This document shows, one piece after another, positions 1 through 20,867 of a stretch of 22,698 nt of DNA (positions within the stretch are counted from its first letter, which is position 1; the number at the start of each line of letters is the position of its first letter). The stretch is from positions 1 to 22,698 of IMG/VR virus record IMGVR_UViG_3300009365_003805; one strand, given 5' to 3'. The stretch comes from a virus. Position numbers and translations under genes: made by a program. Below the pieces are notes generated by a model. It did no database searches and was not told the origin of the DNA. It saw nothing but the letters and a program-made list of their open reading frames with translations.

Positions 1-564
1 TCACGACTTTTTTTCCGATTTTGATCCTATTTGCAAATTCCATTTCGACCCCTCGTAGACAGTCTCGAAATCGCGCCACTTATCCCACTCGTCCGCTAAT
101 GTATCAGGATTCACTCCCTTGTAATTGTATTCGCGCGCACCCACGAGAGCAAGGTATTTTCCAACGAGCTCAGAACAAACGAGCCACTTACCACGGTACG
201 AGACGCGCCTGGCCAAGGGCGGGAACAAATGAAGGAACAACCTCCAAGCTGGATACACTCGGCCCAGGTCCTCCTCAAGGAGTATATTTTTTGCCCTCTC
301 AAAGTCGCCCGATGTTAAAGGCGTATACCGAGCAATTTTGATCCGCTTGCCGTTATACTTGGAAAGATTACCGAGCCTGATTCCATTCGGGAGCGCCTCG
401 AGCGTGGCGCCTACATCGGTTAATACAATGCCGGCATGAGAATATACAGAGCTCCCGTCTTTTGCCCAAAATCTTTGAGCGCCATTTATTAACCGAGGAA
501 TGATTCCGGCGCCTTTGACGACAAAGACATCCCCCGCTTTTAAAGCCATTACTTTACTCACCAT
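1..564 (-). CDS. Permuted NlpC/P60 (YiiX-like) papain-fold enzyme
   Basis: This 187-residue protein (from the ATG at 564; a GTG one codon later has better spacing to GGAGG) has the order His first, Cys later: His43 in Ser-Val-Tyr-Ser-His-Ala-Gly-Ile-Val-Leu and Cys130 in Trp-Leu-Val-Cys-Ser-Glu-Leu. This order is typical of permuted NlpC/P60-like (YiiX/LRAT-type) thiol hydrolases. A Gly-Asp-Val-Phe-Val-Val start (residues 11-16) and Leu-Glu-Ala-Leu-Pro-Asn-Gly-Ile (55-62) match that fold. These enzymes cut peptides, amides or acyl esters. A second cell-wall-active enzyme or a virion peptidoglycan hydrolase are both possible. It has no signal peptide. The stop codon is the first three bases of the window, so the gene is complete. 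Confidence 0.66.
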   Translation of the reverse strand: MVSKVMALKAGDVFVVKGAGIIPRLINGAQRFWAKDGSSVYSHAGIVLTDVGATLEALPNGIRLGNLSKYNGKRIKIARYTPLTSGDFERAKNILLEEDLGRVYPAWRLFLHLFPPLARRVSYRGKWLVCSELVGKYLALVGAREYNYKGVNPDTLADEWDKWRDFETVYEGSKWNLQIGSKSEKKS

Positions 565-1355: not shown

Positions 1356-1769
1356 TTAATAGGTCCAGACTCGTGGCCGCGGACTCATCGGCTCGCGGCA
1401 ATCGTCCAGATGGATTATCCGTTTTTCCCATGGCCCCTTTTGCCGGATCCCTACACCAGAAAATCCCAACAGGACCGCCTCCTGGAGCACTCGATAAGCC
1501 CTCAACCCCGCGACTCGAATATCGACGGCGGCCACCCCGGCGCCGGAGTCCACGGCGTGAGGACCAACTCCTTTCATTTTTGGAGAGACTCGTTGATCAT
1601 GGGCCTTACACCTACACCCCGAGGTCACATAGAGAGGCAGATCTCCGCAACGCTTCCGGAGGACCTCAAGCCTCGCCATAAAGAGCGGATCCATCTCACA
1701 GAAACCACAACCGCATTGACAGGCCATTTCAGCGACGGAGAAATTTTCAGAGATTCGATTCTGTTTCAT
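1356..1769 (-). CDS. M15 family peptidase, endolysin
   Basis: This 137-residue zinc peptidase of the M15 (D-Ala-D-Ala carboxypeptidase-like, M15_3) family would cut peptidoglycan stem peptides for lysis. The zinc ligands are visible: His71 in Gly-Pro-His-Ala-Val, Asp83 in Ala-Val-Asp-Ile and His120 in Ile-Ile-His-Leu-Asp. A Val-Thr-Ser-Gly-Cys-Arg block (48-53) precedes them. Residues 17-24 form a Cys-Gln-Cys-Gly-Cys-Gly-Phe-Cys cluster, common near the start of this family. The length is typical. The start at 1769 was chosen for GGAGAGGA seven bases upstream and an ATGA overlap with the membrane gene; a longer reading from 1844 would run inside that gene. No signal peptide is seen, so it needs a membrane partner for export. 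Confidence 0.9.
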   Translation of the reverse strand: MKQNRISENFSVAEMACQCGCGFCEMDPLFMARLEVLRKRCGDLPLYVTSGCRCKAHDQRVSPKMKGVGPHAVDSGAGVAAVDIRVAGLRAYRVLQEAVLLGFSGVGIRQKGPWEKRIIHLDDCREPMSPRPRVWTY

Positions 1770-2131
1770 TTCGTGGTCCTCTCCTCCAAGCGCTCCACTT
1801 TTTTGGCCAATGGATCGAGCTTGCCATATATTCGAGTGAGGCATTCCGTCCGACGACGACTACAGTCCGCCTCGTGACTTGCCTCCTTTCCACCGACCAA
1901 ATCCCTTATCTCGTCGAGCTTATTCCCATGGGTATCGAGTCGTGATTCTTGCCGGCGCCAAGCAGCCAGCAGAACAACACCCAGGATCCCGGCCACGAAA
2001 AGGAACATCTTCCAATCAGCTGCACCAGTGATGGTATATGCCACAGGCTCGGCGGATGCTTTCGAGGCAATCTTCACGAGTGAGTCGGCGATTTTTTCCG
2101 CAATATTTAAAAGGGCTTCTTCACGTTCCAC
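1766..2131 (-). CDS. Single-helix membrane protein with coiled coil, lysis-block candidate
   Basis: This 121-residue protein has an N-terminal amphipathic helix (1-28), one membrane segment (Trp-Lys-Met-Phe-Leu-Phe-Val-Ala-Gly-Ile-Leu-Gly-Val-Val-Leu-Leu-Ala, about 40-57) and a charged C-terminal coiled coil (60-121) with a Cys-Ser-Arg-Arg-Arg stretch. The start is a GTG with AAGGAG eight bases upstream overlapping the preceding stop; no ATG is near. It lies directly before the M15 endolysin with an ATGA overlap, as holins or haemolysin XhlA-like membrane partners often do. A spanin-like inner membrane subunit is another option. No pore motif identifies it. Confidence 0.5.
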   Translation of the reverse strand: MEREEALLNIAEKIADSLVKIASKASAEPVAYTITGAADWKMFLFVAGILGVVLLAAWRRQESRLDTHGNKLDEIRDLVGGKEASHEADCSRRRTECLTRIYGKLDPLAKKVERLEERTTK

Positions 2132-10743: not shown

Positions 10744-13700
10744 CTAAGCCCTCGCCCCAGCGCTCTCGAGGATCCCGAGAAGCCGGTCAACCTGTCCCTC
10801 TTCCGAATACACCGTCGCCGATAGGCCGGCGGACTCATGGGATAGACGAACCTCAACTACCCGGCTCGGAATACTAGCAGCCGGCCCACGAACGTCTCCG
10901 CCCGTTGCCAGCCTGAGAGGCTCGATTGATGGAAGGGGGATTTTGATATTTGAAATAAAGCCGCCAAGGCGAGCCCGGACCTGGGGAGCCCAATCTCTCA
11001 CCGACGGCAACCTCATTGCATTAAGAGAAGTAAAAAGACCGCGGCCATACTTGCGAACCGCTTCTTTTCGGATAACAAACTCACCGGCCTCCAGGAGAGC
11101 GCGGATCCGATCTCCTCCACCATATCCACCAAGAGCACCACCACGATTAAATCCGGGTAGCGACTCGGAATCGGAATCACTAGAGGCCCTGGATAGCTCC
11201 TCGAGATTATCCATGGCTTGATCATGGGTATCTTGAGCCGACGCCAACTCTTGAGCCCGGCGCTCTCTAATTTGCCGGAGTTTTATTTGATGGAGCTGCT
11301 CGGCCAACTCAAAAGCTCGAAGATGTTCTTCCTCACCTAAACCGTTCGATTGAGAATAGAGCTCCTGGATCCTGGCCAGCTGGTCAGCATGACGCCTTTC
11401 CTCCAGGGCCTCGAGGTTACCTTGCTCCTGGTCGATCTGGTCCTGGAGCGTTCTATTGACACCCTCCAGAGCTTCCACCGCGGCGTATGCTTGGCTGACC
11501 AACTCGACAAGACGATCCTTTGCCCTTTCGATTCCTTGTTGCAAGCCGGCAAGATCCGAATCATCGAGATACTGAACTGAGTCGATGGCCCGCTCGCTTT
11601 GATCAATCAAGTCGATAATAGCGCCGGCTGAGGCCGAGGCCTGGTCGTTAAAGAGAGACACTGAAGCGAGGGCGGTTTGATAAGCATTACCCGAGGCCTG
11701 GTCGAGTCCCTCAATCTGGCGTCGCAAATCCTCGACTTGTCGAGCCTCGGTCAGGATTGACCGCATCACGTTAAGAGCCGCGACCTCCTGGTCATGGAGA
11801 GCCCGATACATTTTGTTCATTGAATGCGCGAGACCGGAATGAATCCCGGTAAAATGACTCCAGCGATCGCGGAGCGTAGCATCAGCCTCGACAACCCGGA
11901 CGGCGAGCTCGTTTAGTTTAGCGTCCACACTTTCCAGATTTGAGAGATCGACCTCGGGGATCTCCTTTTCCTGGGAGAGATAATCGAACATTCCGCGGAT
12001 CTCATCGGCCGCGGATCTCGAGATGTTTTCCAGCTCCCGAAAAGCAAGGACAGCGTGGTTGATCATCGAGCCGCTAACAGTGGTAGACGCCTTCTTTCCG
12101 GAGCTTGCGACTTCTTTTAATGAGTCAGACGCCCTCTTTGCAGAGGCCGCCTCTTTATCAAAAGCATTGGCCGCCTGTTCGGCGGCTTGCGCTACTTTTT
12201 GTTGTTCCTGGACAGCAATCCTGGAGGCCTCGATCTGGTCTTCCAGAGCCGCAACCCTATTCTTTGCCGCCTCGATCTCTTCATCGGTGGCGGTTTTAGA
12301 AAGGAGCAGCTGGCGGAGGTATTCCCGGGCCTGGTTCAAACGCTCCTGGCCACGAGTAAGGGCTGATTTGAGAACCGCCAACCTATTACGCTCGGCCTGG
12401 GCCGTAGCCTTGAGAGCGTCGGCCTGGGCCTTGAGGGATGAGGCGTGTTGTTCTGCCTGTTCAAGGCGAGCACGATCCACTGTCTCGGCTTCTCGAGAGG
12501 ACGCCGTATAATTTCGCGTTTCTTCCCTGGCTTTGGCCACGGCGCCAGAATAATCTCGCACCGTGGCAGCGCCGGCGGCCCGGGCCCGGTCAGAGCGGAC
12601 CTGTGATTTCAGCTGGTCGGCTTCACTCTCTCGGAGCTTGTCGACTTTCTCGGTCGTCTTATTGGCTTTTTCCTCGAGCTCCTGGAGCCGATCCCCGGCC
12701 GCCTGGAAATATTCTGATAGCTTTTGAGCACTTACGGCGCCGGATTCCGAGAGCTCATGGAGGGAGGCCTCGAGAGCTTTTATCTCATCGGGATCCGCCA
12801 TCTTTTTAAGAGCTGCTTCAAAGGCCGCGTCGATGATATCAGCTGAAGCCTGTCCAGATTGAGCAACCAACATAAAGGCATCATTAGCAGCCATGGCAGC
12901 GGTCGAGACATTGGTGGTTGCCTTGGCAACATCGACACCTAATTTTTCAAGGGCAACTTCCAGAGCAGCCTCAATGGTGACAGACGCAGCGGTACCGGAA
13001 TCGGACAGCTCGGAAAACCTCTCTTTCGCCTGGGCGATAAACTCTTCCAGCTTGCCCATGGGCATTTCATTGAAGAGGCCTTTCAACTCGGTTTTGAGTT
13101 GTTGGGCCGACCTTTGACCAGTGCTGACCATCTGGTCGAGCTTGGCCACGAAAGCATCGAGAGAGGCGTTTGTACTGTCAGAGGAAATCGACTTGAAGGC
13201 TTCACTTAATGAAACGGCCGCTTTTTGACCAGCTTCCGCGGTCGATTGGATATCCTGAGTCATTTTCCCCAGGGAGCCGGCCACCTTCTTGGAGGCCTGG
13301 TCGGCGCCAGTCTCGATCTCGTGAAACATGGCGGCGAACTCAGCATCAGCCGCGGCGATTTCCTTTTTAACTTCCTCGAGGTCACCACCGGTGATCCACC
13401 TCCAGGCCTGTTTCGCCCGGAGTCCCGCCTTAACCAGCCCGGCAACCATGGCCACGCCGGCTTGACGAACAACTTTAAATTTATTGAGGAGCTTTCCAAT
13501 CTCCCAACCAGCCAGGCCGGCCAGAGCAACAAGCCCACCCTTTGCAGCCAGGTTTAAACCTCTCAAAGAAGCAGTCAATCCACCATTCGCAATGATAGCG
13601 GCGCGAGCCTGGACAACCATCCCCTGTAGGCCAAGAACAATTTGGCCAAGCCCCAACTTCCAAAGCGTGAAGCCCGTCGCGCCGGCGGCCAGAGTAACCA

Positions 13701-15291
13701 AGAAAGCCTTGGTTATAGGACTTGCCGTGCTCACCCAGGAACTAAAACTCCGGATCCCTTTAATCACCGGCAAAAGCCCCATGGCAACAAGATTGCCCAT
13801 GGAATACATCACAGCGGTTAATTCATTCCTCAACAAGACAAGTTGATTTTGAGGCGTATCTTTCATCTTGTCGTAGGCTTCATCCATTGAGCCGGTGGCC
13901 TCGTCCATGGAAGACAGGATCCCTTTCAGCTCATCGAAGTTTTGAGTCAATGCAAGAACGCCGGTTCGCGCTTCAACATCGGGAATGAGAAAACGCATCT
14001 CGTCGATGGTGAGACCCTTCTCGCGGATCTGGTCCAGGGTAGGAATGAGCCCCTTCCAGGTGATCCCCAATTCATCAAACTTCCTTTTCGCTTCGGGAGT
14101 CGGCGCGGCCATGGCGTTGATCGCACCTTTCAAGGCAGTTGCAGCTTGAGGAGTACGGATACCGGCTTTTGTGAGAGCAGCTACCGCGGCGGAGACGTCG
14201 CGGATCCCGACGCCGGATGCCCTGGCCGTGGGTAAAATTTCACCGAGGTTATTGGCCAACTCGGGAAAGGTGGTCACACCTTTTTTAACTGTGAGGAATA
14301 ACGTGTCATAGATTCCGCCGAGCTTGTCGACTTCCATCCCGTAAGCATTCAAAACACCCATGCCCACATTGACAGCGGTTTTCGTATCGGTCACACCGGC
14401 AACGGCGGCCTTTGCAGACTTCCTAAGAATTTCCGTTGATTGCTCGAGGTTTGCGCCGGCGGAAATAATATCGTATTCAGCGCCGGCGAGATTGGTTGCG
14501 AGCTGGGGGATCTCTTTCGAGACCGCTACCACCTCGCCTTTCAAGGCGGCGAAACGCTCCTGGCTCACATCCAGAAGAGTATTGACCTCGGCCATCTTTT
14601 GAGAATAGTTACTGTAATCCGCGAAGGAACGGACAAAGGCATACCCCACCACAGCAAGACCAGCGAGTCCGGTCTTTGCCTGGGTGATAGCACCGGCCCA
14701 TCCATTGGTCTCAACCTTGAGCTCAGACACCTTTTGCTTAAGGCGCATCTTTGCTTGATGAAGCTCAACCGTGGTGAGTTTGCCGGAGCGGCGTAAATCA
14801 TTATATGAATTCTTGAGCTCTCCGATCTCCCGGCGGATCTCCCTATGGGACCGGACCCCGAAAGCCTGGCGAGCTGCATATACTTTTTTAGATTCGTTGA
14901 CGACAGAGGTTAAGCGCTTTTCCTCACTGGCCAGTTGACCAGTATTGACTCCGGCTTTCTTGGCTGACTCGGAGGCCTCACGGAATTTATTTTTCTGGCG
15001 CTCCAGCTGAACAGCCAGAGCCTTGACTTCCCTTTGTGTCTTTTTGTAGTTAGTGACCAGGCCGGCGGACGCCTTGCCGGCGACCTTCATCTCCTTGGCC
15101 TGTTCAGCCAGACGAGCACGAGCCTCTTTAAACTTTTGATTGACGTCCCGGACACCGGAACCGAGTTTCTTCAGGGAATCAATCTTCCCCAGGGAGGCGA
15201 TATCCTGCCTCATTCTTTGGAGGTTGGTCTTCCCTTCGTAATCGGCGCGGACTTTATATGTAAATTCCTTACCTGACACTTTTTTTGACAA
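10744..15291 (-). CDS. Tail tape measure protein (TP901 family core)
   Basis: This 1515-residue protein sets tail length and is ejected with the DNA. Residues 1-200 are helical and charged. Residues 255-470 are the TP901-type core, with Ala-Gly-Ala-Glu-Tyr-Asp near 270 and Lys-Gly-Val-Thr-Thr-Phe-Pro-Glu-Leu-Ala near 340. Hydrophobic segments lie near 205-222, 525-560 and 583-622. Residues 683-872 carry five imperfect repeats of about 40 residues. Residues 870-1370 are coiled coil, and residues 1383-1417 hold the common end motif Gly-Gly-Asp-Arg-Ile-Arg-Ala-Leu-Leu-Glu-Ala-Gly-Glu-Phe-Val. At about 0.15 nm per residue the tail would be near 225 nm. The start is a TTG (15291) with only an adjacent GGGGA; a GTG at 15279 is an alternative. 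Confidence 0.97.
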   Translation of the reverse strand: MSKKVSGKEFTYKVRADYEGKTNLQRMRQDIASLGKIDSLKKLGSGVRDVNQKFKEARARLAEQAKEMKVAGKASAGLVTNYKKTQREVKALAVQLERQKNKFREASESAKKAGVNTGQLASEEKRLTSVVNESKKVYAARQAFGVRSHREIRREIGELKNSYNDLRRSGKLTTVELHQAKMRLKQKVSELKVETNGWAGAITQAKTGLAGLAVVGYAFVRSFADYSNYSQKMAEVNTLLDVSQERFAALKGEVVAVSKEIPQLATNLAGAEYDIISAGANLEQSTEILRKSAKAAVAGVTDTKTAVNVGMGVLNAYGMEVDKLGGIYDTLFLTVKKGVTTFPELANNLGEILPTARASGVGIRDVSAAVAALTKAGIRTPQAATALKGAINAMAAPTPEAKRKFDELGITWKGLIPTLDQIREKGLTIDEMRFLIPDVEARTGVLALTQNFDELKGILSSMDEATGSMDEAYDKMKDTPQNQLVLLRNELTAVMYSMGNLVAMGLLPVIKGIRSFSSWVSTASPITKAFLVTLAAGATGFTLWKLGLGQIVLGLQGMVVQARAAIIANGGLTASLRGLNLAAKGGLVALAGLAGWEIGKLLNKFKVVRQAGVAMVAGLVKAGLRAKQAWRWITGGDLEEVKKEIAAADAEFAAMFHEIETGADQASKKVAGSLGKMTQDIQSTAEAGQKAAVSLSEAFKSISSDSTNASLDAFVAKLDQMVSTGQRSAQQLKTELKGLFNEMPMGKLEEFIAQAKERFSELSDSGTAASVTIEAALEVALEKLGVDVAKATTNVSTAAMAANDAFMLVAQSGQASADIIDAAFEAALKKMADPDEIKALEASLHELSESGAVSAQKLSEYFQAAGDRLQELEEKANKTTEKVDKLRESEADQLKSQVRSDRARAAGAATVRDYSGAVAKAREETRNYTASSREAETVDRARLEQAEQHASSLKAQADALKATAQAERNRLAVLKSALTRGQERLNQAREYLRQLLLSKTATDEEIEAAKNRVAALEDQIEASRIAVQEQQKVAQAAEQAANAFDKEAASAKRASDSLKEVASSGKKASTTVSGSMINHAVLAFRELENISRSAADEIRGMFDYLSQEKEIPEVDLSNLESVDAKLNELAVRVVEADATLRDRWSHFTGIHSGLAHSMNKMYRALHDQEVAALNVMRSILTEARQVEDLRRQIEGLDQASGNAYQTALASVSLFNDQASASAGAIIDLIDQSERAIDSVQYLDDSDLAGLQQGIERAKDRLVELVSQAYAAVEALEGVNRTLQDQIDQEQGNLEALEERRHADQLARIQELYSQSNGLGEEEHLRAFELAEQLHQIKLRQIRERRAQELASAQDTHDQAMDNLEELSRASSDSDSESLPGFNRGGALGGYGGGDRIRALLEAGEFVIRKEAVRKYGRGLFTSLNAMRLPSVRDWAPQVRARLGGFISNIKIPLPSIEPLRLATGGDVRGPAASIPSRVVEVRLSHESAGLSATVYSEEGQVDRLLGILESAGARA
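12676..13245 (-). repeat. Five degenerate 40-residue repeats in the tape measure
   Basis: The shared pattern is Ser/Ala-x-x-Gly-x-x-Ser/Ala-Ala-x-x-Leu-x-x-Ala-Phe/Leu, with the central glycine at residues 688, 725, 766, 813 and 851 (spacing 37-47). They resemble units of a helical array inside the tail tube. Base-level repetition is weak, so this is an old duplication. Confidence 0.6.
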
Positions 15292-15314
15292 TCCCCGCGA
15301 AAAATGGTTAAGAT
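15285..15314 (+). promoter_or_regulatory. Sigma70-like promoter for the opposite-strand gene
   Basis: A perfect TTGACA (15285-15290) is followed after 18 bases by TAAGAT (15309-15314), matching four of six bases of the -10 consensus. The ATG at 15321 begins six bases after the -10, so transcription would start at or very near the start codon. The -35 hexamer overlaps the first codons of the tape measure gene on the other strand. Such a stand-alone promoter is what a moron needs to be expressed from a silent prophage. Confidence 0.5.
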
Positions 15315-15320
15315 TTAATC

Positions 15321-15521
15321 ATGGACGCCATTAAATTCTTTACATGGACAACAATCACCGGCCTGACAACAGGCACCGCGATTGCTTTACTCCCCGAGCC
15401 ACTCGCTACAAAGGCGGCGGAATTGACCACCGCCCTCGTAGTAAATGGACTTCTTTTATTTACTGTTGGCGGCCTTTGCGCCTACGCCGCCCTTTTCATT
15501 TATTCAAGACTTATTCGCTGA
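15321..15521 (+). CDS. Small two-helix membrane protein; moron candidate
   Basis: This is the only plus-strand gene supported here. It encodes 66 residues with two predicted membrane helices: roughly residues 6-24 and 38-60, ending Ser-Arg-Leu-Ile-Arg. The loop contains Pro-Glu-Pro and charged residues. It fills the 212-base gap between the chaperone long form (stop 15504) and the tape measure start (15291), where the minus strand has no ORF of note, so it is not a shadow; it overlaps the chaperone end by 18 bases. A promoter-like sequence lies immediately upstream, so the mRNA may be nearly leaderless; no strong Shine-Dalgarno site is seen. HK97 gp15, a small membrane superinfection-exclusion protein, occupies a similar place in its tail operon. 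Function here is inferred; a holin-like role is also possible. Confidence 0.55.
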   Translation: MDAIKFFTWTTITGLTTGTAIALLPEPLATKAAELTTALVVNGLLLFTVGGLCAYAALFIYSRLIR

Positions 15522-15970
15522 TTTCTTGCCCAGCTCCGCCAACTCCTCCAGAACGACCTCAAAGAAAGACCATTCATAATCCCAGGCGTTGACGTGGCCG
15601 GCGTGTATTGCGTAAAAGACTAGTCGGTGGAGCTTCCTTCGGGACGAACCTCGTTCAGCAGTTTTCCTCCGACGTTTACGAGGCGACTCATCATCCCGAC
15701 GAAAGTAGGGTTTACCTCTTTCACCTGGTCGATCACCTTCTTAACGTCCGAAGGTGTGACACCATCCGCAACCATGGCGGCCAGCTCAAGGCCGGTACTC
15801 AAGGAGACAGCCTTCGCCGAGATCGGTTCATCACCGAAAAGAAGGTCGACCATATGGACCTCGCTTTTCGTATCCTCCATATCAGAGAGGACCTGGTCAA
15901 TCTCCTTGACTGTCAACTCCCGGGCCGTCACCTCACTACCGACAAACATCACTTTCCTTTCAGTTCCCAT
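15504..15970 (-). CDS. Tail-assembly chaperone, -1 frameshift long form (lambda gpGT-like)
   Basis: Past the short form's stop, the -1 reading frame stays open to a TGA at 15504-15506. It encodes a conserved-looking segment: Leu-Val-Phe-Tyr-Ala-Ile-His-Ala-Gly-His-Val-Asn-Ala-Trp-Asp-Tyr, then Phe-Phe-Glu-Val-Val-Leu-Glu-Glu-Leu, ending Lys-Lys-Ser-Ala-Asn-Lys-Ser. This has no good start of its own. The only slip-like site in the overlap is A-GGA-AAA (15668-15662). Slipping back one base there adds 52 residues, giving about 155 in total. A -1 frameshift at this gene is near-universal in long-tailed phages, and the long form is known to bind the tape measure in lambda. The site is weaker than lambda GGGAAAG (the GGA tRNA would re-pair with AGG), so its exact position is less sure than the event. 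Confidence 0.75.
15620..15970 (-). CDS. Tail-assembly chaperone, short form (lambda gpG-like)
   Basis: This 116-residue acidic protein (119 if a TTG at 15979 is used) is the short form of the chaperone that keeps the tape measure soluble while the tail assembles. The body is helical, with Thr-Ala-Arg-Glu-Leu-Thr-Val-Lys-Glu-Ile near the start, a Phe-Gly-Asp-Glu-Pro-Ile middle and Val-Lys-Glu-Val-Asn-Pro-Thr-Phe at the end, a familiar chaperone pattern. The start is ambiguous: GGAGG is 3 nt from the TTG and 12 nt from the ATG at 15970; ATG was chosen. It lies just before the tape measure gene and overlaps a -1 frame extension (15504). The leader contains a 21-base element also found before the secreted-protein gene at 1312. 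Confidence 0.85.
   Translation of the reverse strand: MGTERKVMFVGSEVTARELTVKEIDQVLSDMEDTKSEVHMVDLLFGDEPISAKAVSLSTGLELAAMVADGVTPSDVKKVIDQVKEVNPTFVGMMSRLVNVGGKLLNEVRPEGSSTD
15662..15668 (-). promoter_or_regulatory. Candidate -1 frameshift slippery site
   Basis: The minus-strand bases AGGAAAA, read in the chaperone frame as GGA AAA, allow the Lys tRNA to re-pair exactly after a one-base slip back; the Gly tRNA would re-pair imperfectly. The -1 frame is open from well upstream through to 15504. It is the best match in the overlap but not the canonical X-XXY-YYZ form. Confidence 0.5.
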
Positions 15971-15995
15971 TTGCTCCAACTACCTCCATTTCTTC

Positions 15996-16016
15996 ATTCA
16001 TCTAAAATCAAGATTT
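15996..16016 (-). repeat. Intergenic 21-base element, copy B
   Basis: Lies in the leader of the chaperone gene, nine bases upstream of its GGAGG, in the gap after the tail-tube gene. Copy A precedes the secreted-protein gene 14.6 kb away. Differences are limited to two bases. Confidence 0.5.
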
Positions 16017-16038
16017 AAAACTCAGACCAAAACGAAAC

Positions 16039-16803
16039 CTAGTACTTGATAAGCTCCCAGGTCCCCGCGGGTGTTGAAAGGATCTTGCCAGTAAGCTCGA
16101 TGGAGCTCAGGTCCTCAGAGATCCAGCCAAGATCACCGGCCGGCTCAAGTTGAGCCTTATTGACGATCACCTCATGATCGGACTGATCCGCCTCGTTACG
16201 GCCGATCAAACGCAGAAAGACATTGAAGGTCAGATTTTCCAGGGCCTTGATTGAGAAACCAGACTGAACGAGCCAGGTGTAAGTAACTTCAAGAGTATCG
16301 GCGTCGGTGATGGCGCCGCCCGGGATCACGTAGATTCGGCCCACCTGATAATCGACCTCATAGTCGACATCCACATCATAAGTAGTCGCACCACCAGAAT
16401 TGGTCACAACCGGCGGAGTCGCTGGATCCAGATTCCTGTTGTCGAGTTTCGCCCACTTGCCCTCACGAGCGACGATCTCTTCCGGAGTGCCTGTATTGTT
16501 ACCGGCGGCTTGAGAGTAATCAGAATCAGCACCAAACATGGCCTTGACTAGGTTGTCGCGAGTGATATCGGTCAAGGTGATTTTCACCTCTTGCTCGGTA
16601 TCACTAACAATACTGGTGATGGTCTGACCGAAATTCGCTCGGCGAGAACCCTTCTGCTCTTTCTTCTCGATGGAGGGTGCAGCGATCACAAAGGCCGAGG
16701 CGTTACCAACATCGAGCTCCCCCTGGGGAACGTCGTTCGCATCAAGGATCGCCATCTGGAGATCACCGGATCCCATAAATGATTCAGTTACATATTCAGG
16801 CAT
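16039..16803 (-). CDS. Major tail (tube) protein
   Basis: This 254-residue acidic, beta-rich protein is the likely tube subunit, stacked as hexameric rings along the tape measure. It opens with Phe-Met-Gly-Ser-Gly-Asp-Leu-Gln-Met-Ala, continues with Gly-Asn-Ala-Ser-Ala-Phe-Val-Ile-Ala near residue 33 and has a loop rich in Asp/Tyr-Val-Asp strands (residues 140-175). The end, Gly-Lys-Ile-Leu-Ser-Thr-Pro-Ala-Gly-Thr-Trp-Glu-Leu-Ile, is typical of tube proteins. GGAGG eight bases before the ATG in an AT-rich leader suggests high expression. Its place, after the terminator candidate and before the frameshifting chaperone, is the conserved one. No Ig-like extra domain was recognised at the C-terminus. 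Confidence 0.86.
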   Translation of the reverse strand: MPEYVTESFMGSGDLQMAILDANDVPQGELDVGNASAFVIAAPSIEKKEQKGSRRANFGQTITSIVSDTEQEVKITLTDITRDNLVKAMFGADSDYSQAAGNNTGTPEEIVAREGKWAKLDNRNLDPATPPVVTNSGGATTYDVDVDYEVDYQVGRIYVIPGGAITDADTLEVTYTWLVQSGFSIKALENLTFNVFLRLIGRNEADQSDHEVIVNKAQLEPAGDLGWISEDLSSIELTGKILSTPAGTWELIKY

Positions 16804-18671: not shown

Positions 18672-20135
18672 TTAGTCGCCTCCTCCTCCTCCCGAACCTG
18701 GGTTCATGAAAGCACCTTTCGAGCCCACCAGGCCAGCGCCGAAATCGTGGCGGACCTTGAGCTCCAGCGCGTCGGAATCAAAATTCACTCTCTCCTCGAT
18801 ATATGGCTGCTCCTCACCCTCGAGGAAGGCAACTTCGATAACCGGCGCTCGATTCGGAGAGGCAAACAGATACCAAGCCTCAGTTGAAACATCGTCGAGA
18901 CGAGGCTCTGCGATCGGAGTCAATTTGCCAGCGTGTGGATTGAAAGTACCGGCTGGCATACCAGAGACAGGCAAGGTCGCGGAACGGAGAAGGATCTCGG
19001 AATCCATTTCCTGGGCCGTGGGAACAAGGAGAAACTCGGGCATAATATCCAGATTTGCGCCGGCCGTTCCTTTTTGCTTCCGCATCATGCTACGGCCAGC
19101 CTTGAGGTTGTCGGCATCCACAGCACCTAAATTCGCCCCGGTCTCTTCGAGGTTTTTATGAACCGCGGAAAACAGCGCGTTACCGTCAGAAAGATCCGGA
19201 TTACTGAGAATCAAAGAGTAGACCGCGTCGGATTCCATCCGGCGAGCAGAGTCGCCGAATAGCCTCGTCCCGCGAGTAAAGGCGCGAAGGTCATCGTTAA
19301 TAATCATCTGACGAGTAAAGATGATCTTGATACCCTTGGTCACAACCCTGTAAGACTCTTTCGAGTCGGTGAGTTTGGCGGTTCTATACTCACCGTTTTC
19401 ATTCAAGGGCAAGAGATCCGGAGCGCCGGAAAGCTCGATACCATGAATATCTTTGAAGTCCGTCGCATCGGTCACAGTCACAATGGGTCGCCAAGTTGAA
19501 GGAGCCTCATCGTATGCCCCTATCAAATGCTTATTGGCCAGGGCCGACATAAGGGCGGGAAAGTCTGAAGTTGAACCAGAAGCCAAAGCACGAGAGACAA
19601 CCTCCCGACGACTCAAACCCTCGACACGTTCGCCGGCCAAAACCAAACACTGGCGGACGATATGCAACATAGACCGACCACGGAGCTCTTGAGCACCGAC
19701 GGCCGGAGCATCGACACTAATTCCAGAACGCAGAGAAAGAGCGTCAGCCGCCGCGTTACGGAATTTATCCCGGGCCTCGGTTTCAACGGTAATACCGGCA
19801 CCGGCACCGACAGGAGTCGACTTTTTCGCCAGGTCGTCAAGAATCTGCTTGCGGACCTGGTCCATATCCATACCGGCGGCTATAAATTCTCGGCCTCGTT
19901 GCTCACCCAAACCGGCAACGGAAACGGCGTCGAGGATATCGGCGGTCCGCTTTCTCTCGGCGGCCACCGCCTCGGCCTTTACCTGTTCATTGTCGACAGG
20001 CTGAGCAGCTGGAGCCGGAGGAGTCGCGGGAGTCTCGGGAGCTCGGCCGCCGTCTCCAGCGCCGGAGTCCGCCCGGTGACCGCATTCGCACCGGACCCCG
20101 TCAAAATCCTTTCCACAGTCAGGACACTTCTTCAT
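18672..20135 (-). CDS. Possible internally initiated scaffold-capsid product
   Basis: Inside the fusion gene, in the same frame, codon 245 is an ATG preceded by AGAGGTGA with a four-base gap (AAAC). This is a better ribosome binding site than many true starts in the window. Initiation here would give a 487-residue protein lacking the protease but keeping the Cys/His knuckle, the scaffold-like region and the whole capsid domain. Lambda makes its scaffold Nu3 from an internal start within the protease gene C, and a capsid needs hundreds of shell subunits but few proteases. It is therefore reasonable that this is the main capsid precursor. The signal is seen directly; the use of it is inferred. 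The alternative is chance purine-rich sequence, with capsid released only by proteolysis. Confidence 0.6.
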   Translation of the reverse strand: MKKCPDCGKDFDGVRCECGHRADSGAGDGGRAPETPATPPAPAAQPVDNEQVKAEAVAAERKRTADILDAVSVAGLGEQRGREFIAAGMDMDQVRKQILDDLAKKSTPVGAGAGITVETEARDKFRNAAADALSLRSGISVDAPAVGAQELRGRSMLHIVRQCLVLAGERVEGLSRREVVSRALASGSTSDFPALMSALANKHLIGAYDEAPSTWRPIVTVTDATDFKDIHGIELSGAPDLLPLNENGEYRTAKLTDSKESYRVVTKGIKIIFTRQMIINDDLRAFTRGTRLFGDSARRMESDAVYSLILSNPDLSDGNALFSAVHKNLEETGANLGAVDADNLKAGRSMMRKQKGTAGANLDIMPEFLLVPTAQEMDSEILLRSATLPVSGMPAGTFNPHAGKLTPIAEPRLDDVSTEAWYLFASPNRAPVIEVAFLEGEEQPYIEERVNFDSDALELKVRHDFGAGLVGSKGAFMNPGSGGGGGD

Positions 20136-20867
20136 GTTTTCACCTCTTGCATTGTTGTTGACAGAATCGCGATCGCCAGGACTACCGACCAGAGCTCGCA
20201 CCTTTGCGAGACGGTCCGCCCCAATGGGCACCAGCGACAACTCTTTTATGGCCCACCTGGTCGAAACCTTGAGCGGACCTTCGTATTCTTTTCCGTTGAT
20301 TAATTGTTTCTCGCCTTCCGGGATGTAATAGGAGGGCTCGAGGACCTCATACCCGACAGAAACGTCGGTTAAGTGACCTTCCTCCACCTTGACCTTTGCG
20401 GCGGCGGCGCGTTCATCGGCGGAGAAATCTATCTGGCAATCTTGCCCCGGGTATCCCTCAACGTCGCAACGCTGGAAGTCACCGGCCGAGCCGAATAAAT
20501 CGTCGATACTGGCCCGGGAATGGGTATCAAGAACAGGAACGCGACCGGAATCTGGAAGGATCATTCCGTCGGCGACAAGCACCTCGCGAACGAAATCCCA
20601 GCGTTCCCAATCCCATACCGTGGCCGGGAGCTCAGTCGTCGCAACAAAGCGACAAGAGCCGGCCTCGGCGTCAAAGGTCCCCGGCCTCACTACTCCGGAG
20701 CGAACAGATAATCCCTCTCGCAAGCCAGCGGCGACCAGGGCCTCACGGACATCCTCGCGATCCATAGACTTACCTGGACCGGCACCATCTCGGAGCTGAA
20801 TCCCTCGAGCGGCTCGGGCTTTTTCTTTACGTGCTCTTTTCTTCTTTCTCTTTGCTCGTGACTTCAT
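18672..20867 (-). CDS. Prohead protease / scaffold / major capsid protein fusion
   Basis: This single 731-residue chain joins the capsid protease and the shell subunit. Residues 1-20 are very basic (Arg/Lys-rich). Residues 50-230 look like an HK97-type S78 prohead protease, with His116 in Leu-Asp-Thr-His-Ser, Ser170 in Asp-Val-Ser-Val-Gly-Tyr and the Lys-Glu-Leu-Ser-Leu-Val-Pro-Ile block near 208. Residues 245-264 form a Cys/His knuckle. Residues 265-390 are Pro/Ala-rich then helical and probably act as scaffold. Residues 390-731 are the capsid part, resembling the Mu gpT-like/HK97-fold families, and end in a run of glycines. The start has AAGGGG seven bases upstream and an ATGA overlap with portal. 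Protease-capsid fusions are known in several phage groups. A strong internal start at codon 245 suggests that two products are made. Confidence 0.93.
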   Translation of the reverse strand: MKSRAKRKKKRARKEKARAARGIQLRDGAGPGKSMDREDVREALVAAGLREGLSVRSGVVRPGTFDAEAGSCRFVATTELPATVWDWERWDFVREVLVADGMILPDSGRVPVLDTHSRASIDDLFGSAGDFQRCDVEGYPGQDCQIDFSADERAAAAKVKVEEGHLTDVSVGYEVLEPSYYIPEGEKQLINGKEYEGPLKVSTRWAIKELSLVPIGADRLAKVRALVGSPGDRDSVNNNARGENMKKCPDCGKDFDGVRCECGHRADSGAGDGGRAPETPATPPAPAAQPVDNEQVKAEAVAAERKRTADILDAVSVAGLGEQRGREFIAAGMDMDQVRKQILDDLAKKSTPVGAGAGITVETEARDKFRNAAADALSLRSGISVDAPAVGAQELRGRSMLHIVRQCLVLAGERVEGLSRREVVSRALASGSTSDFPALMSALANKHLIGAYDEAPSTWRPIVTVTDATDFKDIHGIELSGAPDLLPLNENGEYRTAKLTDSKESYRVVTKGIKIIFTRQMIINDDLRAFTRGTRLFGDSARRMESDAVYSLILSNPDLSDGNALFSAVHKNLEETGANLGAVDADNLKAGRSMMRKQKGTAGANLDIMPEFLLVPTAQEMDSEILLRSATLPVSGMPAGTFNPHAGKLTPIAEPRLDDVSTEAWYLFASPNRAPVIEVAFLEGEEQPYIEERVNFDSDALELKVRHDFGAGLVGSKGAFMNPGSGGGGGD
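20136..20147 (-). promoter_or_regulatory. Internal ribosome binding site in the protease-capsid gene
   Basis: On the minus strand the bases read AGAGGTGAAAAC directly before an in-frame ATG at 20135. AGAGGTGA pairs well with the 3' end of 16S rRNA and the spacing is within the normal range. It falls at the protease/scaffold border of the fusion, where an internal start would be useful, rather than inside a folded domain. Confidence 0.65.

Follow-up and report, generated by a model that had tools for sequence, protein, structure and literature searches.

The T/TMP junction and the genes around it

The window analysed here is the whole 22,698-nt viral record IMGVR_UViG_3300009365_003805. The minus strand carries all of its structural genes, namely those for the portal, capsid/protease, major tail protein (MTP), chaperone G, tape measure protein (TMP), tail tip and endolysin. 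A preliminary description of this DNA had placed an ORF for a 66-residue, two-helix protein on the opposite strand in the interval between the chaperone and TMP. That ORF is present at 15321-15521 (+). The junction contains the following features:

10744-15291, minus strand: TMP gene, assigned by position and size, with a TTG start at 15291 or a GTG start at 15279; the N-terminus resembles the TMPs of loci L220 and L227
15285-15290, plus strand: -35-like hexamer TTGACA (6/6 match), overlapping the first TMP codons on the other strand
15309-15314, plus strand: -10-like hexamer TAAGAT (4/6 match), after an 18-nt spacer and 6 nt from the ATG
15321-15521, plus strand: candidate moron gene for a 66-aa membrane protein with two transmembrane (TM) segments, from the ORF listing, with an ATG start
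15698 down to the stop at 15504, minus strand: T, a start-less -1-frame extension of chaperone G with the C-terminal pattern GH..-YGWSFF, as in relatives
15661-15667, minus strand: candidate slippery stretch GGAAAAC for a G to GT frameshift, inferred from sequence
15620-15979, minus strand: tail assembly chaperone G (phrog_7608, E 6e-14; phrog_1442 'tail assembly chaperone', E 0.06)
16039-16803, minus strand: MTP (phrog_807, E 2e-41)

The chaperone shows the usual G/GT arrangement. The T frame of the window ends ...HVNAWDYEWSFFEVVLEELAELGKKSANKS* (the C-terminal end is also given as ...FYAIHAGHVNAWDYEWSFFEVVLEELAELGKKSANKS), and the same C-terminal pattern recurs in relatives, for example as ...CRLIQAGHVGAWHYGWHFFLIALETLNGK in L221. 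This T extension (15698-15504, minus strand) had been overlooked in the preliminary description, which held that the minus strand has no ORF opposite the 66-aa frame. T runs to 15504, and the real sense-strand gap is therefore 15292-15503 (212 nt). The 3' end of T overlaps the 66-aa ORF by 18 nt, tail to tail. Elsewhere in the window, the head maturation protease and major capsid protein are apparently fused in one 731-aa ORF (18672-20867, minus strand; phrog_4523 and phrog_133), and an edge-truncated ORF (4-564, minus strand) resembles enoyl-CoA hydratase-like phage proteins (phrog_1128, E 6e-8).

Coding potential and promoter geometry of the 66-aa ORF

The product of the 66-aa ORF contains two hydrophobic segments. 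AlphaFold2, run on the single sequence with no alignment, predicted helices at residues 3-21 and 26-65 with a mean pLDDT of 80 and a pTM of only 0.40. An ATG-initiated ORF of at least 60 aa appeared in 3.4% of dinucleotide shuffles of the stretch, and one that also carried two TM-like segments appeared in 0.02%. Codon usage scored -0.07 per codon, compared with +0.04 to +0.12 for the phage structural genes. This value falls inside the range of antisense ORFs and neither supports nor refutes coding, and we set codon usage aside as uninformative. We also considered derivation of the slot protein from hydrophobic segments of TMP and rejected it, as there is no meaningful similarity between them.

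The size and predicted two-helix hairpin of the protein would suit a lysis accessory (holin or antiholin) or a small hydrophobic toxin. The gene lies on the strand opposite to the late genes, however, with the endolysin about 13 kb away, and a one-TM holin-like ORF (1766-2131, minus strand) already adjoins that endolysin. We regard a role in lysis or toxicity as highly improbable.

The preliminary description also reported a promoter, TTGACA-18-TAAGAT, with the ATG six bases after the -10 element, and the sequence agrees. The promoter alone is weak evidence, since one such site was found where 0.6 would be expected in 1.1 kb, and promoter-like sites arise by chance about once per 2 kb. An equally good promoter whose -10 ends precisely 6 nt ahead of the ATG occurred in 0.13% of shuffles. 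The six bases between the -10 and the ATG are TTAATC and contain no Shine-Dalgarno sequence. A sigma-70-type promoter with this spacing starts its transcript at, or adjoining, the A of the ATG. Because the -10 element ends 6 nt before the ATG, the mRNA probably begins at the AUG and is leaderless, a point absent from the preliminary description. The lambda cI mRNA made from PRM is a leaderless prophage transcript and resembles the predicted mRNA in having its start codon at the transcript start and in being expressed in the prophage state. cI is a repressor rather than a membrane protein, and we compare the expression geometry alone. A simple consensus scan, which may not fit the terminator type of the host, found no terminator-like site on the plus strand in the roughly 580 nt after the ORF (15521-16100).

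A cargo site with recurring opposite-strand two-TM genes

Phages, viral contigs, genome contigs, PHROGs, Pfam, PADLOC and the PDB yielded no homologue of the 66-aa protein, and neither did 258 genomes of the class that holds Desulfobulbaceae prophages. Neither it nor six sister slot proteins matched a PADLOC HMM up to E=1. As these searches found no homologue, we studied the site in relatives instead. TMP and MTP as single-sequence queries gave no match among viral contigs. Loci were gathered from IMG/VR, GenBank phages and bacterial genomes through a 1194-aa tail protein (phrog_6128), and about 150 non-redundant relatives were compared. One 8-kb contig (L002, IMGVR_UViG_3300007510_001078), with a portal 100% identical to that of the window, apparently comes from the same virus; it ends short of the T/TMP slot. 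The 1194-aa tail protein is one gene in the window. It is split into two genes at about residue 670 in a Desulfobulbaceae-related lineage (L005 9512, L006 12011, L007 5870, L014 12011 and L113/L114 (G001)), where a TAA stop is followed by a purine-rich, ribosome-site-like stretch and then an ATG.

The distance from T to TMP was judged in the relatives that share this tail protein. T often abuts TMP; otherwise, the interval holds cargo. In relatives that have the chaperone but carry nothing extra between T and TMP, T ends no more than about 10 nt from TMP (L113, L221, L223, L224, L225, L227 and L229). The junction that holds the 66-aa ORF is thus closed in relatives lacking an insert, as expected of a moron. 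The MTP-TMP interval ranges from 6 to 2002 nt among relatives. Between TMP and MTP flanks that are at least 97% identical, it measures 71 nt (L096-L098), 889 nt (L090/L094) or 2002 nt (L095). The slot is cleanly empty or filled within this group, in which the chaperone itself seems absent from the interval. On the sequence comparison, these filled and empty states are the signature of a cargo site.

Slot cargo occurs on both strands and includes sense and opposite-strand genes. The 2002-nt slot of L095 holds an opposite-strand ORF, named by eye as alpha/beta-hydrolase-like, together with a 302-aa ORF. One state of the L090/L094/L095/L096-L098 group carries a 152-aa ORF that appears lectin-like by eye, and the L051 slot holds a 255-aa ORF named by eye as Cys-rich. 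The MTP-TMP interval of L043, L046 and L047 contains a sense-strand multi-TM protein of about 259 aa; by flank identity, L043 groups with L116/L171 of Aeromonas.

Opposite-strand two-TM ORFs recur at this site. Such ORFs begin at the TMP start, or a little ahead of it, in the window and in L012 (44 aa), L024 (60 aa), L027/L103 (52 aa), L034 (81 aa), L035 (79 aa), L057 (60 aa), L129 (65 aa) and L220 (53 aa). L035 was counted as slot although the boundary set by the script put it just outside. The ORFs form nine slot families, that of the window included, and are mutually dissimilar except for L027/L103 (62% identical). The L092 ORF overlaps a sense ORF and is for that reason probably spurious. 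The slot makes up 10% of the sense-noncoding DNA and holds 11 of the 15 two-TM opposite-strand ORFs. This density (11 in 27 kb of sense-noncoding slot DNA versus 4 in 239 kb elsewhere) is about 25-fold higher, with P about 1e-8 by locus and 2e-7 by family, and P = 1e-5 without the two weakest cases, L092 and L057. Enrichment fell to about 2-fold (11/152 versus 58/1755 junctions) in a looser test that admitted ORFs antisense to coding DNA. The C-terminal overlap with the T frame seen in the window also occurs in L034 (about 60 nt) and L035 (4 nt).

We weighed whether the 66-aa ORF might be no gene at all and simply a chance ORF in a short untranslated gap. Its lack of homologues, its neutral codon usage, the frequency of promoter-like sites and a -10 element matching at only four of six positions would all be compatible with chance. 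The ORF, two TM segments and a correctly spaced promoter are jointly rare, however, relatives without an insert have practically no gap at T/TMP in which an ORF could arise, and the same build recurs in unrelated sequences. We consider a chance origin improbable and the 66-aa ORF very probably a real gene.

The 52-aa sister family, represented at nine loci, allowed us to compare substitutions. Well-diverged pairs gave dN/dS values (as pN/pS) of about 0.2-0.5; near-identical pairs gave pN/pS of 0.13-0.8, with counts too low to interpret. Indels are absent from the family. The pattern of substitutions indicates that this family is under purifying selection. In all of its members, a TACAAT element ends 6 nt before the ATG, and the six bases that follow it vary (GGGCGG, GAAGGG, GGGTGC and GCGGGC). 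L034 has the arrangement TTGACA-17-GATAGT-6-ATG. The shuffle P for the -10/6-nt/ATG geometry is 0.001 in the window and 0.0003 in L034. The leaderless geometry is therefore common to three unrelated families, those of the window, the 52-aa proteins and L034. The slot genes of L012, L024 and L220 have a Shine-Dalgarno leader instead, which is strong in L220 (AAAGGAGG).

These data also bear on whether the functional product could be the transcript rather than a peptide. An antisense RNA over T and G could silence leaky late expression in a lysogen or set the G:GT ratio, and a transcript from this promoter would enter T and G, with no terminator found for about 580 nt downstream. Several observations argue against this. 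A two-TM ORF whose first base coincides with the predicted transcript start would seldom arise by chance (0.02%, as above), the 52-aa sister family is constrained at the protein level, and the Shine-Dalgarno sequences of the L012, L024 and L220 slot genes would be needless for an antisense RNA. A role as antisense RNA would also leave the recurrence of the two-TM build unexplained. We judge it to be quite unlikely.

The preliminary description had proposed the 66-aa ORF as a moron, and the T/TMP cargo site and the recurring small opposite-strand two-TM genes support that reading. The relative nearest to the window is L220, whose tail protein shares 49% identity. It sits on a 4.3-Mb contig from a Desulfobulbia genome, and its 53-aa two-TM slot protein is unrelated to the 66-aa protein of the window. 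The location of L220 in a bacterial contig of this length indicates that the lineage includes prophages. No integrase was identified in the 22.7-kb window fragment, so we infer that the virus is temperate from its relatives. Taken together, the 66-aa ORF is likely to be a membrane moron expressed from the prophage.

Known systems and a proposed role in superinfection exclusion

We compared the 66-aa ORF with systems described in other phages. The title of Cumby 2012 (cited in PMC13190303 and PMC10884400) describes HK97 gp15 as a superinfection-exclusion moron. Like the 66-aa ORF, gp15 is a small membrane-protein gene situated between the chaperone T frame and TMP and extra to the structural operon. 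Unlike the 66-aa ORF, it lies on the sense strand, is followed by an annotated terminator and has a Shine-Dalgarno sequence, and its product has one hydrophobic helix and a charged tail rather than two helices. No alignment between the two proteins was obtained at E<=100. The parallel with gp15 drawn in the preliminary description thus holds for the position between T and TMP and fails for strand, helix number and sequence similarity.

Phage JBD26 carries Tab on the minus strand, inside its late operon, as a moron that has a separate promoter and acts on TMP (PMC10884400). The Tab/anti-Tab system resembles our proposal in its placement within a late operon, its independent promoter and its expression from the prophage (PMC10884400). 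It differs in that Tab lies between terminase genes, blocks tail assembly via TMP and is soluble when expressed. Tab is also paired with a counter-defence gene, whereas no such partner was seen for the 66-aa ORF. SNIPE is a membrane-bound nuclease that acts during injection, a stage at which TMP is a target of membrane-bound defence (PMC13190303). The likeness lies in its membrane location and in its action where TMP crosses the inner membrane (PMC13190303); SNIPE is a nuclease with a DUF4041 domain, whereas no catalytic domain can be recognised in the 66-aa protein. Morons that run backwards within late operons have precedents, and so has the T/TMP slot. Their combination with a leaderless promoter and a two-TM build that recurs appears to be a new variation, and we found no published description of it in open-access full texts.

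We propose that the 66-aa ORF is a single-gene cargo, independently transcribed, at the chaperone T/TMP junction. The predicted promoter spans the start of TMP, and in a lysogen with a silent late operon the leaderless mRNA would yield only the small protein. The opposite orientation of the ORF would make it a lysogeny-only gene. Folded as a helical hairpin, the protein would sit in the inner membrane, which is where TMP contributes to genome entry. Its most likely job would be superinfection exclusion, in which it would stop genome injection by phages that share the tail/inner-membrane route. After induction, convergent late transcription through the ORF would lower its expression while the phage assembles its own progeny. 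We put exclusion at injection by the 66-aa protein at about an even chance.

A prophage-expressed membrane moron might instead have another role, such as masking or removing a surface receptor to keep released progeny from being wasted on lysogens, blocking conjugation, tuning envelope stress or transport, or conferring another lysogenic-conversion trait. The slot, recurrence and promoter evidence would be the same, and slot cargo extends beyond membrane proteins, as in the hydrolase-like ORF of L095 and the Cys-rich ORF of L051. A common target on the injection route nevertheless accounts better for the recurrence of small, unrelated two-TM proteins beside TMP than assorted metabolic roles do, and we consider these other roles rather unlikely.

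Extending the exclusion model to this large siphophage group, we tentatively suggest that the T/TMP junction may be a dedicated exclusion slot, a view we hold as possible but short of probable. Unrelated two-TM proteins would be loaded into it backwards, their promoters reaching over the start of TMP and many of their mRNAs being leaderless. The exclusion gene and the tape measure would then be co-inherited and mutually exclusive in expression, with exclusion on in the lysogen and off during TMP transcription. If true, this arrangement would explain how an exclusion gene can be on in lysogeny and off during assembly of the phage's own tails. A backwards two-TM ORF at the TMP start whose -10 element lies about 6 nt ahead of the ATG would, by position and geometry alone, point to exclusion genes lacking recognisable sequence homologues. 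Finally, the linkage between excluder and TMP would make the proposal that TMP type sets exclusion specificity directly testable.
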